Below are positions 35 through 36,569 of a stretch of 44,275 nucleotides of DNA, in pieces. This DNA comes from Saprospiraceae bacterium (GTDB lineage: Bacteria; Bacteroidota; Bacteroidia; Chitinophagales; Saprospiraceae). The position numbers and the translations under genes are program-made. Where the stretch lies: contig JAHDCG010000030.1 of NCBI GenBank assembly GCA_020629965.1, forward strand, positions 9,852-54,126. Direction: 5' to 3'. The notes under the pieces are model-generated. The model saw nothing but the letters and a program-made list of their open reading frames with translations, searched no databases and was not told the DNA's origin. Each line of letters opens with the position of its first letter. Within the stretch, counting starts at the first letter, position 1.

Positions 35-346
35 AACCACACACTATGAGAACACCCAATTGTTAATCTTCGGTTTGTTGCGGGGTTGTGAAAAGCGGGC
101 GCACGGGGGGTGACTGTGCGCCCTGTATTCACTAAATACTGATACTAAAAGTGACGAACGGTTCGGGAAAACCGCACGTCTTTCACGGTTGTCAAACGGT
201 GAAAAAGTGAGCTGCATTCGTTTATGCAGCTCGGTATTTATCTTGTTTTTTGAGACAGGCGATGTGTAAGTTTATTCATAGTTTGTTTAATGCTCAAACC
301 TCAACAAAACAGATAAAAAAGGTACATGGATATTTGAAAAAATGTG

Positions 347-377
347 CTAAAAGCCTCTCCTGCAACCGCAGGAGAGG
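347..377 (-). terminator. Terminator-like hairpin of second module
   Basis: A perfect ten-base-pair stem (354-363 with 368-377) with a four-base loop is followed on the minus strand by CTTTTAGC, a short T tract. It sits at the same place in its module as the hairpin at 8-34. Confidence 0.45.
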
Positions 378-29374: not shown

Positions 29375-32300
29375 ATGAAAAAACTTTTGCTATCATTAAG
29401 TATGGTTCTTTTTGTGGTCGGCTTTGCGTTGGCACAAAAAACCGTGACGGGCACGATTACCGATACCGACGGCGAGCCGTTGATTGGTGCATCCGTGCTG
29501 GTCAAAGGTACCTCTTCGGGTACGGTTACGGACATTGACGGTGGGTTTAGCCTGCGTGTGCCTGAAACGGCAGAGATGCTGTCTGTCAGCTACACGGGTT
29601 TTGCTAACCAAGATGTTCTTATCGACGGTCGCTCTGCTATCGACGTCGTCATGGAGGAAGGTGTGGCACTCGACGAGGTAGTCGTTACCGCATTGGGTAT
29701 TTCACGTGAAGAAAAATCTTTGGGTTACGCAATGAGTGAAGTAGGCGGTGAGGAAATCGCCGACTCGCGTGAAACAAACGTCGTCAACGCGCTGCAAGGT
29801 AAAGTTGCGGGTATCCAGATTCAGGGTTCGCCTTCGACGCTCGGCGGTTCTTCGCGTATCACTATTCGCGGTAGTTCTTCCTTCCTCGGTCAAAACCAAC
29901 CGCTTTTCGTAGTGGACGGTGTGCCGATTGACAACTCTAACTTTGCTACCAACGGTCAACAGCGCGGTTTCGGTGGTTCCAACGCTTATGACTACGGTAA
30001 TACGGCGCAGGATATCGACCCGAACAACATTAAGTCTATGTCTGTACTGAAAGGAGCGGCAGCGACAGCACTCTACGGCGCGCGCGGTGCGAACGGTGTT
30101 ATTTTGATTACTACCAAAGACGGCAGCGGTCAGAAAGGTTTCGGTGTAGAAGTTAACTCTTCCGTAGGTTGGGATCAGGTTACTAATCTTATTCCCCATC
30201 AGCAGATATACGGCGGGGGTGATATACAACCAACCGAAAGCGGCTTCAACGAGGTAGTCATCGACGGTCAGACTCAACTATATCCTACTTATGCGAAGGA
30301 TGGTTCTTGGGGACCTAAATTTGAAGGTCAGTTGGTACGTCACTGGGACTCTTGGGATCCGCAACGTCCGAACTTTGGTGAATTGCGCCCATGGGTTGCT
30401 CCGGAAAACGGCTACGAAGAATTCTTTGAAACGGGTATGACTTTCCAAAACAGTGTTGCGGTCAGCGGTGCGGATGAGAAAGGTTCTTTCCGTTTGGGTT
30501 ACACAAACCTGAACCAAAGCGGTACTTTTCCGAATGCGGAATTAGACCGTAATACGGTGACATTCAACAGCGGTTACCAACTGCACCCGCGCCTGAAAGT
30601 AGGCATCAGCGGTAACTACGTACGCAACGAAGCGGCAAACCGTAACGTAACGGGCTACAACAACGGTAACCCGATGCAGGCATTTACCCAATGGTGGCAG
30701 ACAAACCTGGACTTGGATCGTTTGCGCGATGCATCTACTTACGTGGACGGTACGCAGTACACATGGAATCCGGTCGGTGTTGTCAAAGACCAAGCGACTA
30801 ACGAGTTTGTCGGTTTTAACCCAAATCCTAACTTCTTCGATAACCCTTATTGGGTGCGCAATAACTATTTACAAGAAGATGTACGCGATCGTATTTTCGG
30901 TAACTTCAATGCTTCTTTTGAATTGGCGGAAGGTTTGACTTTGACGGGTCGTTTAGGGAATGACTTTTATGCCTTCTCAGCGGTGACAGGTATTCCGAGT
31001 GCTTCCGTTTCTCAAGGTCAATATACAGAAACAGAGCGTCGCTTCAACGAATCAAACCTCGAAGGTCGCTTGAACTACAATAAAGATTTCGGTGACATCA
31101 GCTTATCTGCAAGTCTTGGTGGTAACCGTATGCGTCAATTCACACGTCGTACTTACTTATCTACCGTAGGTGGTGTAGAATTGCCGGGCTTTGATAACTT
31201 GAGTAACTCTGCCGGTCCCATCGACTTCGAAACAGAAGAGTTTAACAAGCAAATTAACTCTGCTTTCGGTTTTGCTTCTATCGGTTTCCGCAACTTCTTA
31301 TATTTAGACATCAGCGGTCGTAATGACTGGTCTTCCACTTTGAACGCGGATGATAATTCTTATTTCTACCCTGCCGCCTCTTTGAGTGCGGTCATTTCCG
31401 ACATCCCGGGTTTGGGTAACTTAGGTCCTCTTTCCTTTGCGAAAGTACGTTTGAGCTATGCACAAGCAGGTAATGACGCAGACCCTTATTTGACAACTAA
31501 CGTATTCGACCCGCAGGTGCCGGGTATTCGCGGTAATACACGTTATAATGTACCGAATACTTTGCCGAACCAATTGTTGGCAAATGAGTTGACAAAAGAA
31601 ATCGAAGCAGGTCTTAACGTTCGTTTCCTGAACAACCGTATCGGTTTGGATGTAGCTTATTACAAGCGTAATACTACCGAGCAAATTTTCAACGTACCGG
31701 TTTCTGCTGCAACAGGGTTTACCGCACGTGCATTAAATGCAGGTGAAATGGAAAACAGCGGTGTCGAGTTATCTTTAAACGTAACTCCGGTTTCTACGCG
31801 TGACTTCACTTGGGATTTGTACTTCAATGCAACCAGCATCAACAACAAAGTTGTTTCTTTGGATGAAGGTGTAGAAAGTATTGCACGCGGCGGTACTTGG
31901 GCAGCGGATTTGCGTGTAGCGGAAGATGTAGGTTACATGGCATTGTTCGGTCAGGATTTTGTGCGTGAAAACTACGAGGAAGATGCGGACGGTAACATCA
32001 TTCGTAACGAAGGTCAACCTACCGTTAATGAAAACGGTGAGTGGGTACAGACTGCAGATCGTGTATTCTTGGGTAGCGCAGTCGCTGATTATATCGGTGG
32101 TTTCGGTACTAACTTTACTTACAAAGGCATTAACTTGGGTGTTTTGTTTGATTTCCAGGAAGGCGGTATCGTACACTCTACTTCTTTGCAGTGGGCTAAA
32201 TACTCCGGTATGCACCCCGAAACAATTTCTTTCAACGGTGTAGAAGATATACGTGAAACAGGTTTGATTTTGCCGGGCGTGAAAGCAGACGGTACGCCGA

Positions 32301-32614
32301 ACGACATCGCAATCGACCCGCAGACATACTACCAAAACACTTTCCGTTTTGCTGCACCGAACGTATTCGATGCATCCTTCCTGAAATTGCGCGAAGTACG
32401 TTTGGGTTACACTTTGCCGAACACTATCTTCGGCGGTAGTACTTTCCGCGATATGCGTATCAGCTTATTCGGTCGTAATTTGGCTGTCTTGTCTTCTGAC
32501 TTGCCTTACCTCGATCCGCAACAAGTCAATGGTGCAGGTAACGAGCAAGGTCTCGAAAACGCACAGGTTCCTTCAACCCGTTCGTTCGGTATTAACTTGA
32601 CCTTCAGACTGTAA
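29375..32614 (+). CDS. SusC/RagA-family TonB-dependent outer-membrane transporter
   Basis: Outer-membrane importer of 1079 residues. Signal peptide (residues 1-20, ending FALA-Q), carboxypeptidase-regulatory-like beta domain (about 22-95, VTGTITDTDGEPLIGASVLVKG), TonB box region (DEVVVTALG, about 99-107), plug domain (about 115-260 with VNALQGKVAGIQI and PLFVVDGVPIDN), then a 22-strand beta barrel ending in aromatic-rich RSFGINLTFRL. It works with the SusD-like lipoprotein 102 bases downstream. The substrate cannot be read from the sequence: no glycoside hydrolase lies next to it, and the nearest candidate enzyme is the esterase at 37573-38982. Confidence 0.96.
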   Translation: MKKLLLSLSMVLFVVGFALAQKTVTGTITDTDGEPLIGASVLVKGTSSGTVTDIDGGFSLRVPETAEMLSVSYTGFANQDVLIDGRSAIDVVMEEGVALDEVVVTALGISREEKSLGYAMSEVGGEEIADSRETNVVNALQGKVAGIQIQGSPSTLGGSSRITIRGSSSFLGQNQPLFVVDGVPIDNSNFATNGQQRGFGGSNAYDYGNTAQDIDPNNIKSMSVLKGAAATALYGARGANGVILITTKDGSGQKGFGVEVNSSVGWDQVTNLIPHQQIYGGGDIQPTESGFNEVVIDGQTQLYPTYAKDGSWGPKFEGQLVRHWDSWDPQRPNFGELRPWVAPENGYEEFFETGMTFQNSVAVSGADEKGSFRLGYTNLNQSGTFPNAELDRNTVTFNSGYQLHPRLKVGISGNYVRNEAANRNVTGYNNGNPMQAFTQWWQTNLDLDRLRDASTYVDGTQYTWNPVGVVKDQATNEFVGFNPNPNFFDNPYWVRNNYLQEDVRDRIFGNFNASFELAEGLTLTGRLGNDFYAFSAVTGIPSASVSQGQYTETERRFNESNLEGRLNYNKDFGDISLSASLGGNRMRQFTRRTYLSTVGGVELPGFDNLSNSAGPIDFETEEFNKQINSAFGFASIGFRNFLYLDISGRNDWSSTLNADDNSYFYPAASLSAVISDIPGLGNLGPLSFAKVRLSYAQAGNDADPYLTTNVFDPQVPGIRGNTRYNVPNTLPNQLLANELTKEIEAGLNVRFLNNRIGLDVAYYKRNTTEQIFNVPVSAATGFTARALNAGEMENSGVELSLNVTPVSTRDFTWDLYFNATSINNKVVSLDEGVESIARGGTWAADLRVAEDVGYMALFGQDFVRENYEEDADGNIIRNEGQPTVNENGEWVQTADRVFLGSAVADYIGGFGTNFTYKGINLGVLFDFQEGGIVHSTSLQWAKYSGMHPETISFNGVEDIRETGLILPGVKADGTPNDIAIDPQTYYQNTFRFAAPNVFDASFLKLREVRLGYTLPNTIFGGSTFRDMRISLFGRNLAVLSSDLPYLDPQQVNGAGNEQGLENAQVPSTRSFGINLTFRL

Positions 32615-34162: not shown

Positions 34163-34180
34163 GCTTGGCTTGGTAAATAC

Positions 34181-34226
34181 AGAAAAGGGCGACTTTGCAG
34201 GAGGCAAAGTTGCCCTTTTCTTTTTA
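34181..34226 (+). terminator. Terminator after susD-like gene
   Basis: AGAAAAGGGCGACTTTGC pairs almost perfectly with GGCAAAGTTGCCCTTTTCT across a short loop, followed by five T. Confidence 0.85.
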
Positions 34227-34354
34227 CGGTATTCGCTTGTTCATTTTGTCCGAAAAGCGACAACCTAAAAGGTTAGAGAAAACTAACTTTAGCTCTGAGG
34301 TATTTGGTTTATTATACTCTTTGTGTTTCTTCGCTCACTTTAAAAGTCAAATCA

Positions 34355-35494
34355 ATGAAAATCCGCACCTTACTTTTTTCCTTGCTGTTATTTGCTGCCG
34401 TCGGTTGTCAAAAAGAAGACAACAGTCCTCCCCCGCCGCCGGTCGATAACTCGGGTACGGGTACTACCGAACTGAAGCAGGAAAATTTTCAGGACACGCC
34501 GCTCGTTATTGTCGGTAATCAAAGTCGTAATTACTTACGGGTTTTTGACCGCCGCCTCGCGGACGGTACGGTTGCTGACTTTACGCCTGTGCAACGTGAT
34601 TTGCCCGTCATCATGCTTGATACGGAAGGAAACGAGTGGGACATTTGGGGAAAAGCGACGGCAGGACCGCGCTTCGGAGAGCAACTGAACAGCCCGGATA
34701 ATTACATCGGTTTTTGGTTTGCCTGGGCGACTATGTATCCCGGTACGGAAATCGCTGAGGGAGAAGCCTTTACGGGTAGTTATGAGCCTTCGCCACCGAC
34801 CGAAGATTGGAGTATTCCAACCGAAAATGTCTATTCTATTCTCGCTGCCGATGCTATTCCGTCGGTAGATGAACCGCAGTTTACCGAGTATGACCAACGC
34901 TCGGAAATCGAAGCGGGCACTTATTTTCTCGAAGACGATGCACTTATCGTAGCAGTACGATACAACGACGTCACCCGTGTCTATCCACACTCCATTCTCA
35001 ACTGGCACGAAATCGTTAATGACAATATCGATGACTTTTATTTTTCCGTTTCCTTTTGCCCGATAACAGGTACGGGAGTCGCCTGGGAGCGCACCGTTAA
35101 CGGAGAACCGACGACCTTCGGCGTGTCCGGCCTGCTGCACAACGGTAACGTCATACCCTACGATCGACAGACGGAAACGTACTGGTCGCAAATGAAACGC
35201 AGCGGGCTGCGCGGCTCTCTCATCGAAAATGAGATGCAAAAAGTCGAGGTATTGGAAACTACTTGGGGAACACTTAAATTTGTTGATAAAACCCCCGAAG
35301 TAATGACCACCGAAACAGGATTTTCCAAAGACTATACACTCAATCCTTACGAAAATTATATTTACGATAACAGCTACCTCTCCTACCCCGTTTCATTTGA
35401 AGACGAGCGTCTGCCCCTCAAAGAGAGAGTGCTCGGCATACAAATCAATGACAGGGCGCGGGTATATCGATTTACCGATTTTACGGGAAATTAG
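34355..35494 (+). CDS. DUF3179-domain lipoprotein with swapped halves
   Basis: A 379-residue predicted lipoprotein from the ATG at 34355 (lipobox AAVGC, Cys18). Residues about 40-145 contain the part that in DUF3179 proteins normally ends the domain: IVGNQSRNYLRVFDRRLADG, LPVIMLDTEGNEWDIWGKA and GFWFAWATMYPGTEI. Residues about 175-375 contain the part that normally begins it: ILAADAIPSVDEPQF, RVYPHSILNWHEIVND, SFCPITGTGVAW and FGVSGLLHNGNVIPYDRQTETYWSQ. The protein ends (VYRFTDFTGN) about where the other half usually starts. The function of DUF3179 is unknown. It lies between the susCD terminator and an outer-membrane protein, 91 bases from the latter. Confidence 0.85.
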   Translation: MKIRTLLFSLLLFAAVGCQKEDNSPPPPPVDNSGTGTTELKQENFQDTPLVIVGNQSRNYLRVFDRRLADGTVADFTPVQRDLPVIMLDTEGNEWDIWGKATAGPRFGEQLNSPDNYIGFWFAWATMYPGTEIAEGEAFTGSYEPSPPTEDWSIPTENVYSILAADAIPSVDEPQFTEYDQRSEIEAGTYFLEDDALIVAVRYNDVTRVYPHSILNWHEIVNDNIDDFYFSVSFCPITGTGVAWERTVNGEPTTFGVSGLLHNGNVIPYDRQTETYWSQMKRSGLRGSLIENEMQKVEVLETTWGTLKFVDKTPEVMTTETGFSKDYTLNPYENYIYDNSYLSYPVSFEDERLPLKERVLGIQINDRARVYRFTDFTGN

Positions 35495-35585: not shown

Positions 35586-36569
35586 ATGTATCGAAATTCA
35601 GCCTGCTTCTCTTTCGTAGTTCTTTTCATTTTTTCCTGCTGCCAAATTCAGGCGCAGGGTTGCTGTGCGGGCGGGGCACCGTTGGCGGGTAATACGGATT
35701 TGTCGATTCTACCGGGTCGCACTTTTACTTTTCGATTGAGTTATGACCGGAATAAAATCAATGATTTGGTAGCGGGGAGCGAGGAATTAACAGACAACAG
35801 TCGGAGCCGAGTCAGCAGTTCGGTATTGCTGCGAGCGGGTTATGCTTTTAACGATAAAATTGCGGTGACGACCCTATTAAGTTACAACGCGCAAACGGAA
35901 AGGGCGGTCGGTTTTACGGAAGCAAATGAGTTGAGTGCCCGCGGTCTCGGTGATGCCGTGGTTTTGTTGCAATATAACCTTTTCAATAACGGCAGAAAGG
36001 GTCTGTCGGTAGCAGCAGGAGTAAAAATGCCGACAGGAGCGGTCGATCGGCGTGACGAGCAGAACGATTTGTTACTGCGGGCTGATTTGCAGCCGGGTAC
36101 ACGGGCTTTTGATTATTTGCTGAATACACGTTGGGTGACGACTGATATTGCGAATTCAAAATTCAATTTTGAAGCGGGTGCCGTAACGCGCATAGCGACT
36201 GCGACAGAGCGTTTTGAGAGTCAACAGAAGTATAAATTCGGGAACGAAGCACAGGTATTTGCGAGTTTAAGTCGTAATTTCTATTTAAAAAAATTCTTAC
36301 TGATACCACAGGCAGGTCTGCGTTGTCGCTACTCTGCACGCGACCAAATTAACGGCAACAAATCGAGCGACACCGGCGGTTACCGCACATTTTTATCAAG
36401 CGGCGCATTGGTTACTTCGACAGGCGGACTCTCGATAGCCGTACAATATAATTTGCCGTTATACCGCTATTTAAACGGGCTGCAGTTAGCAACCACATAC
36501 AGCTATGCAATGGGTGTTGAATATACCGTTACTCGGCAGACACAAATCGATTTCGTTCCTGTTTTTTAA
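35586..36569 (+). CDS. Predicted outer-membrane beta-barrel protein
   Basis: A 327-residue exported protein. Signal peptide of about 23 residues ending QIQAQ, then a GCCAGGAPLAGNTDL motif that I have seen at the N-terminus of uncharacterised Bacteroidota outer-membrane proteins. The rest consists of alternating amphipathic strands (for example VSSSVLLRAGYAFNDKIAVTTLLSYNAQ) ending in aromatic VEYTVTRQTQIDFVPVF, as expected for a transporter-like barrel. The Cys-Cys pair could bind metal, which is inference. It is probably co-transcribed with the DUF3179 gene. Confidence 0.75.
   Translation: MYRNSACFSFVVLFIFSCCQIQAQGCCAGGAPLAGNTDLSILPGRTFTFRLSYDRNKINDLVAGSEELTDNSRSRVSSSVLLRAGYAFNDKIAVTTLLSYNAQTERAVGFTEANELSARGLGDAVVLLQYNLFNNGRKGLSVAAGVKMPTGAVDRRDEQNDLLLRADLQPGTRAFDYLLNTRWVTTDIANSKFNFEAGAVTRIATATERFESQQKYKFGNEAQVFASLSRNFYLKKFLLIPQAGLRCRYSARDQINGNKSSDTGGYRTFLSSGALVTSTGGLSIAVQYNLPLYRYLNGLQLATTYSYAMGVEYTVTRQTQIDFVPVF

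Follow-up and report, generated by a model that had tools for sequence, protein, structure and literature searches.

We identified a DUF3179 lipoprotein that is very likely a circular permutation of the usual DUF3179 order with the fold kept, encoded in a 44,275-nucleotide stretch of a Saprospiraceae genome (the whole of which we call the window). The gene, at 34355..35494 (+), is an intact frame of 379 amino acids (P0001) with matches to PF11376 and to half-profiles of the family. Such a permutation had been proposed in the initial annotation, and it held: the PF11376 pieces are reversed, and the same order and break recur in 21 other distinct genes. The permuted form is real, conserved and rare, and predicted structures indicate that its fold has very probably been retained. 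Both its function and the route to the permuted order are inferred.

The PF11376 profile comprises 292 positions, and P0001 was the only frame that it matched in the window's genome. The match fell into two pieces, with profile positions 2-205 on the 3' part of the frame (E 2.9e-64) and positions 210-292 on the 5' part (E 3.9e-5; 24.9 bits, with a cut-off of 27 bits). Scored over both stretches, the whole protein reached 241.9 bits, above the gathering cut-off of 27 bits. Both parts of the profile are present, and all of its positions were recovered except a few at the break. The usual DUF3179 architecture was defined by ascending profile order along the chain, which is our definition and not Pfam's own criterion; in P0001, positions 210-292 precede 2-205. 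Because this order is reversed, P0001 was filed as a permuted variant rather than as an ordinary member. NCBIfam held no family for P0001. Half-profiles built from an alignment of 32 ordinary-order loci, split at the same point as the break, matched P0001 with B upstream (E 6e-27) and A downstream (E 6e-77), so that homologous segments stand in exchanged order. The exchange had been described as one of N- and C-terminal halves; the order is indeed exchanged, but the part that moved is roughly the last third (profile about 207-292).

P0001 begins with a lipoprotein-type signal peptide, recognized by reading (34355..34408, +; AAVGC), whose lipobox Cys18 is aligned in 8/8 permuted proteins of one alignment. 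Segment B, the usual C-terminal part, here comes first (34469..34756, +; PF11376 about 207-292) and holds most of repeat 2. A linker of 17 amino acids (34757..34807, +) joins the old C-terminus to the old N-terminus. Segment A, the usual N-terminal part, comes last (34808..35482, +; PF11376 2-205) and contains repeat 1 in full together with the opening strands of repeat 2. Within it lie the HEIVND motif (residues 218-223; 35006..35023, +), with His and Glu kept in 22/22 permuted rows, and Cys235 of CPITGT (codon TGC; 35057..35059, +). The opening strands of repeat 2 (residues 358-376; 35426..35482, +) are now C-terminal, and the chain stops at the break.

The two repeats reflect an internal duplication within the usual DUF3179 protein; compared with each other by hhalign, they gave a probability of 97.9 % and E 3.5e-13 over 118 columns. 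If the usual layout is written x1y1-x2y2, the permuted chain reads signal-lipobox, y2, linker, x1y1, x2. The break is a short loop of few residues between 'YRFssF' and 'vi.D.f.g' of repeat 2. Ordinary chains run from ...KAYRFssF through this loop into viqD.f.g..., while permuted chains finish after the first of these stretches and, past signal and linker, start with the second. In repeat 2 the break occupies the position equivalent to WHEIVND in repeat 1. The initial annotation had also observed that the frame stops where the missing partner segment would begin, and the chain end does coincide with the break. Its statement that the ends of the fold must be close together was too strong, since the old ends are joined by the linker. 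In one permuted protein (L137) the A-profile match stops at 204, the final residues being too diverged.

Orthologues in both orders, which the initial annotation had suggested seeking, were found. Among 149 frames with a good A match, A preceded B in 118 and B preceded A in 26; five were cut or without a B match. The 26 permuted frames represent 22 distinct genes, and a few of the 118 ordinary frames are one locus fetched twice. All 22 permuted genes share a common breakpoint and are distributed over f1 (the family of the window), f12 (another family in the window's order) and the Marinifilaceae. They include Saprospiraceae loci (L052-L054) and loci from Labilibaculum, Marinifilum or Ancylomarina (L055-L061), genera placed in Marinifilaceae by the tree tool's taxonomy. 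A 23rd permuted gene (L199) occurs in a genome of the Bacteroidales sample, the order sample around Marinifilum. Internal stops had been reported for several permuted hits. In L133 (genome G002) the coordinates identify the codon as the stop that ends the gene, past which the HMM match had run, and the remaining permuted frames fetched are open to their ends. Because the window lies in a draft genome of 291 contigs, one might suspect faulty assembly or binning, or a rearrangement that happened by chance in this genome alone; we regard this as negligible given the identical order and breakpoint in the 21 other genes, including that of Marinifilum flexuosum strain DSM 21950. As the permuted order is common to several bacterial groups, it reflects genuine evolution rather than misassembly.

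The permuted order is nevertheless rare. In a phylum sample of 395 genomes, it was present in 2 of the 57 DUF3179-bearing genomes, the window's own included, with one short partial match left unclassified (G516) and one divergent, A-only match (G537). The possibility that most Bacteroidota share this order, raised in the initial annotation, therefore fails. Within the window's order (396 genomes), at least 11 of 130 DUF3179-bearing genomes carried it, own included, among the matches listed, where only those stopping near position 205 were checked. In Marinifilum's order (295 genomes), the count was 2 of 21, centre included, with six genomes of partial matches only left unclassified. Elsewhere, 55 of 56 named loci (L076-L131) showed the usual order and one (L130) was cut by a contig end; judged by their titles, these came mostly from Proteobacteria, with Nitrospinota, archaea, Calditrichota, Ignavibacteria, one Omnitrophota and one Saprospiraceae. 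Both orders were found within single genomes in three cases (G786, G788 and G1022).

Structure prediction suggested that the permuted chain folds as a unit. The AlphaFold2 model of P0001 reached pLDDT 91.4 and pTM 0.89, using as input P0001, 21 other permuted proteins and, from proteins of ordinary order, 35 fragments with A only and 32 with B only. The model of an ordinary protein (L032; 50 sequences) reached pLDDT 93.0 and pTM 0.90. After rotation, the order of strands and helices agrees between the two models, which are predictions compared without coordinate superposition. It is very improbable that P0001 consists of two unrelated domains that merely resemble pieces of DUF3179, a reading foreseen in the initial annotation: the upstream piece alone falls slightly below the Pfam cut-off, but its B half-profile match is strong, the model is one compact body, and the N- and C-terminal pieces of the chain align jointly to a single Rieske-type domain.

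This likeness to Rieske domains emerged from searches of the PDB. In Foldseek, neither model had a hit that reached E 0.001. The ordinary model had the Rieske domain 8hn2_A in first place (probability 0.96). With the permuted model, the top three rows were unrelated and of low probability; Rieske oxygenases appeared from rank 4, their probabilities also low and their rmsd poor, and rank 21 was PetC3 (5cxm; probability 0.72). Foldseek's candidates, and these only, were re-aligned with VIA-align; from their titles, we take the best 50 rows per model to be Rieske ferredoxins, Rieske oxygenases, respiratory and photosynthetic Rieske subunits, and small subunits of arsenite oxidase and nitrite reductase, with chain identity in supercomplexes presumed. 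In the ordinary model, repeat 2 aligned with 3gce (Z 8.2, rmsd 2.9, 92 aligned) and repeat 1 with 4nb9_E (Z 6.6, rmsd 2.8, 92 aligned); repeat 1 of the permuted model aligned with 2de7_E (Z 7.6, rmsd 2.5, 92 aligned). Spanning both chain ends, permuted residues 37..366 aligned with 8hn2_A (Z 7.3, rmsd 3.1, 87 aligned) and 36..367 with 6wn3_A (SxtT; Z 7.2, rmsd 3.5, 91 aligned), ranges in which only the first and last residues are given. By comparison, residues 37..117 alone gave 76 aligned with 6wnb_A (also SxtT), and rows using 36/37 to 114-119 alone gave 73-78. These values are consistent with a Rieske fold, but according to the tool's own warning, Z below 8 (here about 7-8) may reflect a common arrangement. 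The joint alignments give a direct indication, within the models, that the swapped chain ends of P0001 complete one Rieske-like domain.

Homology to Rieske proteins by sequence was considered and rejected, as profile comparison was not significant. Against 30 Rieske sequences, hhalign gave 0.2 % for repeat 1 and 3.6 or 1.8 % for repeat 2 under two settings; 20 column-shuffled versions of repeat 2 gave up to 1.8 %. A sequence search for solved relatives returned one chance-level match only (E 0.46). Rieske proteins bind their [2Fe-2S] cluster through a C-x-H ... C-x-x-H motif. These ligands have no match in P0001, whose only Cys residues are Cys18 of the lipobox and Cys235.

Duplication and later loss of both outer parts would best account for the permuted order. 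An ordinary DUF3179 gene would have been duplicated in tandem in Bacteroidota, probably once; the first y2 would then have received the signal peptide, and a stop codon would have arisen anew behind the second x2. The initial annotation had suggested this route, and head-to-tail pairs of ordinary genes make it plausible (L072, L144 and L205-L208), two of them being same-frame DUF3179 genes parted by a single TAG (L205, 692-3082; L207, 775-3009). The tandem-domain ancestor that it also suggested seeking was not found, and no fused or half-trimmed intermediate was seen among the loci read. Two sets of candidates for a fused ancestor were discarded: an 823-aa frame in G094 is two genes with stops between them, and L072 and L205-L208 are separate head-to-tail genes. 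Two permuted proteins (L143 and L199) retain in mid-chain a GG..DGIP-type stretch of the ordinary N-terminus, which fits a direction from ordinary to permuted. Fission of the gene into separate A and B genes, later fused in reverse, is a recognized general model of circular permutation (PMC3320104). For DUF3179 we consider it distinctly improbable: no separately encoded A and B pair was present among the loci classified, and of six partial matches checked, five were cut by contig ends and one (L214) was a divergent A-only protein.

Whether duplication and loss occurred more than once was addressed with trees built from the two segments, A and B, after concatenation. With all 71 rows, a quick tree needed three changes of label, and starred branches forced at least two of them. 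In that tree two permuted proteins (L142 and L143) lie beside ordinary ones (L012 and L032). Both results speak for repeated origins at one loop. In a careful tree of 58 rows, however, all 16 permuted rows lay on one side of a branch (71/90) that recurred in 72 % of 200 bootstrap trees, and a single clade for all 22 permuted rows (64 rows) was not rejected (AU p 0.464); neither result establishes a clade. The careful tree omitted 13 long-branched or outlying rows (7 ordinary and 6 permuted), and the AU test omitted those 7 ordinary rows only. Dropped before all trees were the duplicate loci L002, L028, L029, L062, L065, L069 and L132, a near-copy of L087 (L078), the long-frame loci L022, L023, L025 and L145, and the divergent L144; the tree set also excluded 63 frames having A but no full B. 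Repeated origin appears improbable, and we favour a single origin of the permutation in Bacteroidota.

Upstream of the DUF3179 gene, the window encodes a SusC/RagA TonB-linked outer-membrane protein (29375..32614, +) and a SusD-like lipoprotein (PF12771; 32717..34162, +). Downstream lies a probable partner gene for an outer-membrane beta-barrel (35586..36569, +); its match was sub-threshold, and barrels of this family lie near ordinary and permuted DUF3179 genes, with PF13557-like matches over the cut-off at L032 and L057. RNA folding revealed an intrinsic-terminator-like hairpin with a T-rich end (34181..34225, +) between the SusD and DUF3179 genes, which the terminator pattern scan did not list. 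The surrounding stretch (34163-34240) folded at -34.2 kcal/mol (z -5.88), and 0/200 shuffles were as low. Terminator-looking repeats were seen by eye at the equivalent place in L052 and L053. Because of this hairpin and its look-alikes, co-transcription with SusCD is doubtful, and the DUF3179 and barrel genes more probably form a separate unit next to SusCD, outside its operon.

Gene neighbourhoods differed between the two orders. In a chosen subset of loci, of unequal lengths and related to one another, a barrel gene was near DUF3179 in 22/27 ordinary and 10/20 permuted loci, SusC-like genes in 1/27 against 10/20, and SusD in 0/27 against 9/20, with L133 a tenth by separate reading. The difference for SusD gave Fisher p 1.2e-4 (9/20) or 3.6e-5 (10/20), values that ignore the relatedness of loci. 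Saprospiraceae-type loci have the permuted gene beside SusC/SusD, and Marinifilaceae copies have the barrel without SusCD in the stretches read. In four of the latter group's loci (L055, L056, L057 and L061; Marinifilum, Labilibaculum), a divergently oriented gene for a nickel superoxide dismutase-like protein adjoins the barrel and permuted DUF3179 genes (L057:1207-1713, -; PF09055, E 8.9e-28).

The Cys of CPxTGT is present in 49/49 ordinary rows of the tree set and in 16/22 permuted rows, the others having Ala (three), His (two) or Ser (one). Part of the permuted group thus appears, by its sequences, to have lost the presumed active Cys. Individual cases are L134, with His, and L137, with Ala. 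Another departure is a locus with two adjacent divergent DUF3179 genes (L144:1533-4001, -), in which CxxC replaces CPLT and hydrophobic N-termini suggest membrane anchoring.

An ordinary-order DUF3179 gene in G1010 (L198:627-1778, +) has an in-frame TGA at the conserved Cys (YUPLC), and the same genome has a SelA match (E 1.1e-134), making its product a probable selenoprotein on sequence grounds. A contig-end fragment in G749 (L201:2-589, -) likewise has TGA at this position (YUTLCGT); no SelA match was found in G749, and the contig is perhaps foreign. The window's genome also gave no SelA match. PMC9312934 and PMC13188914 list DUF3179 as a UxxC/T selenoprotein family. Together with the conserved Cys and the TGA and SelA of L198, this listing makes a Cys/Sec redox role likely for the family, and less so for the permuted branch. 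As 6 of 22 permuted proteins lack the Cys, a redox role cannot hold for all of them, and for the permuted protein we entertain it tentatively, at somewhat less than an even chance.

Permuted proteins may alternatively be accessories of SusC/SusD uptake, for example surface ligand-binding lipoproteins with no redox role. The SusD neighbours of permuted but not ordinary loci and the loss of Cys in part of the group are consistent with this reading; the hairpin between the SusD and DUF3179 genes, the Marinifilaceae copies with a barrel but no SusCD, and the kinship among loci that the Fisher test disregards argue against it. We consider such an accessory role possible but on the unlikely side. 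Under the redox reading, the protein may be a cluster-less, Rieske-like envelope lipoprotein with Cys/Sec-type chemistry, acting jointly with the outer-membrane barrel encoded next to it.

In the permuted chain, the N-terminal y2 and C-terminal x2 would complete one Rieske-like domain, with repeat 1 whole, giving the usual two-domain body. The lipid anchor, which ordinary proteins carry where repeat 1 starts, would sit in the middle of repeat 2 instead, and as a result the body would face its partners differently. A more speculative proposal, which we think doubtful as a whole, is that DUF3179 is an unrecognized tandem pair of cluster-less Rieske-type domains that traded their metal site for a redox site of Cys/Sec type. 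The permuted form of Bacteroidota would re-tether this enzyme via its second domain, allowing its adoption beside SusC/SusD, with some lineages losing the redox Cys to become binding proteins.

To our knowledge, natural circular permutations with both orders coexisting are not common. Permuted and ordinary DUF3179 share a phylum and, in some cases, even a genome. Because the break lies inside one unit of a duplicated fold, at the place of HEIVND in the other unit, the family serves as a natural test of the sites at which such a fold tolerates a cut. If true, the Rieske-like reading would provide a structural hypothesis for a family of unknown function with known selenoprotein members. No report of a permuted DUF3179 or of its Rieske likeness was found in the literature searched, whose scope excluded subscription papers and preprints, and the fold resemblance is possibly unreported before.

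Several known systems invite comparison. The DUF3179 selenoproteins described in PMC9312934 and PMC13188914 share the position of the Cys with P0001, which has it as CPIT; they carry Sec, whereas P0001 encodes Cys (TGC rather than TGA). Rieske domains (for example 8hn2, 3gce and 1rie) appear to resemble the predicted fold of each DUF3179 repeat, but DUF3179 lacks the CxH/CxxH ligands and has two tandem domains, one of them split in the permuted form. Saposin and swaposin have a fold unrelated to DUF3179, and the DUF3179 case differs from theirs in that the protein is itself internally duplicated and the break interrupts one of its repeats. They represent the textbook circular permutation by duplication (PMC3320104). 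Compared with ordinary DUF3179 (PF11376), P0001 keeps the WHEIVND, CPxTGT, FGVSG and YDRxTxxxWSQ motifs and differs in having profile positions 207-292 before 2-205, a new linker, and a lipid anchor placed elsewhere in the fold.
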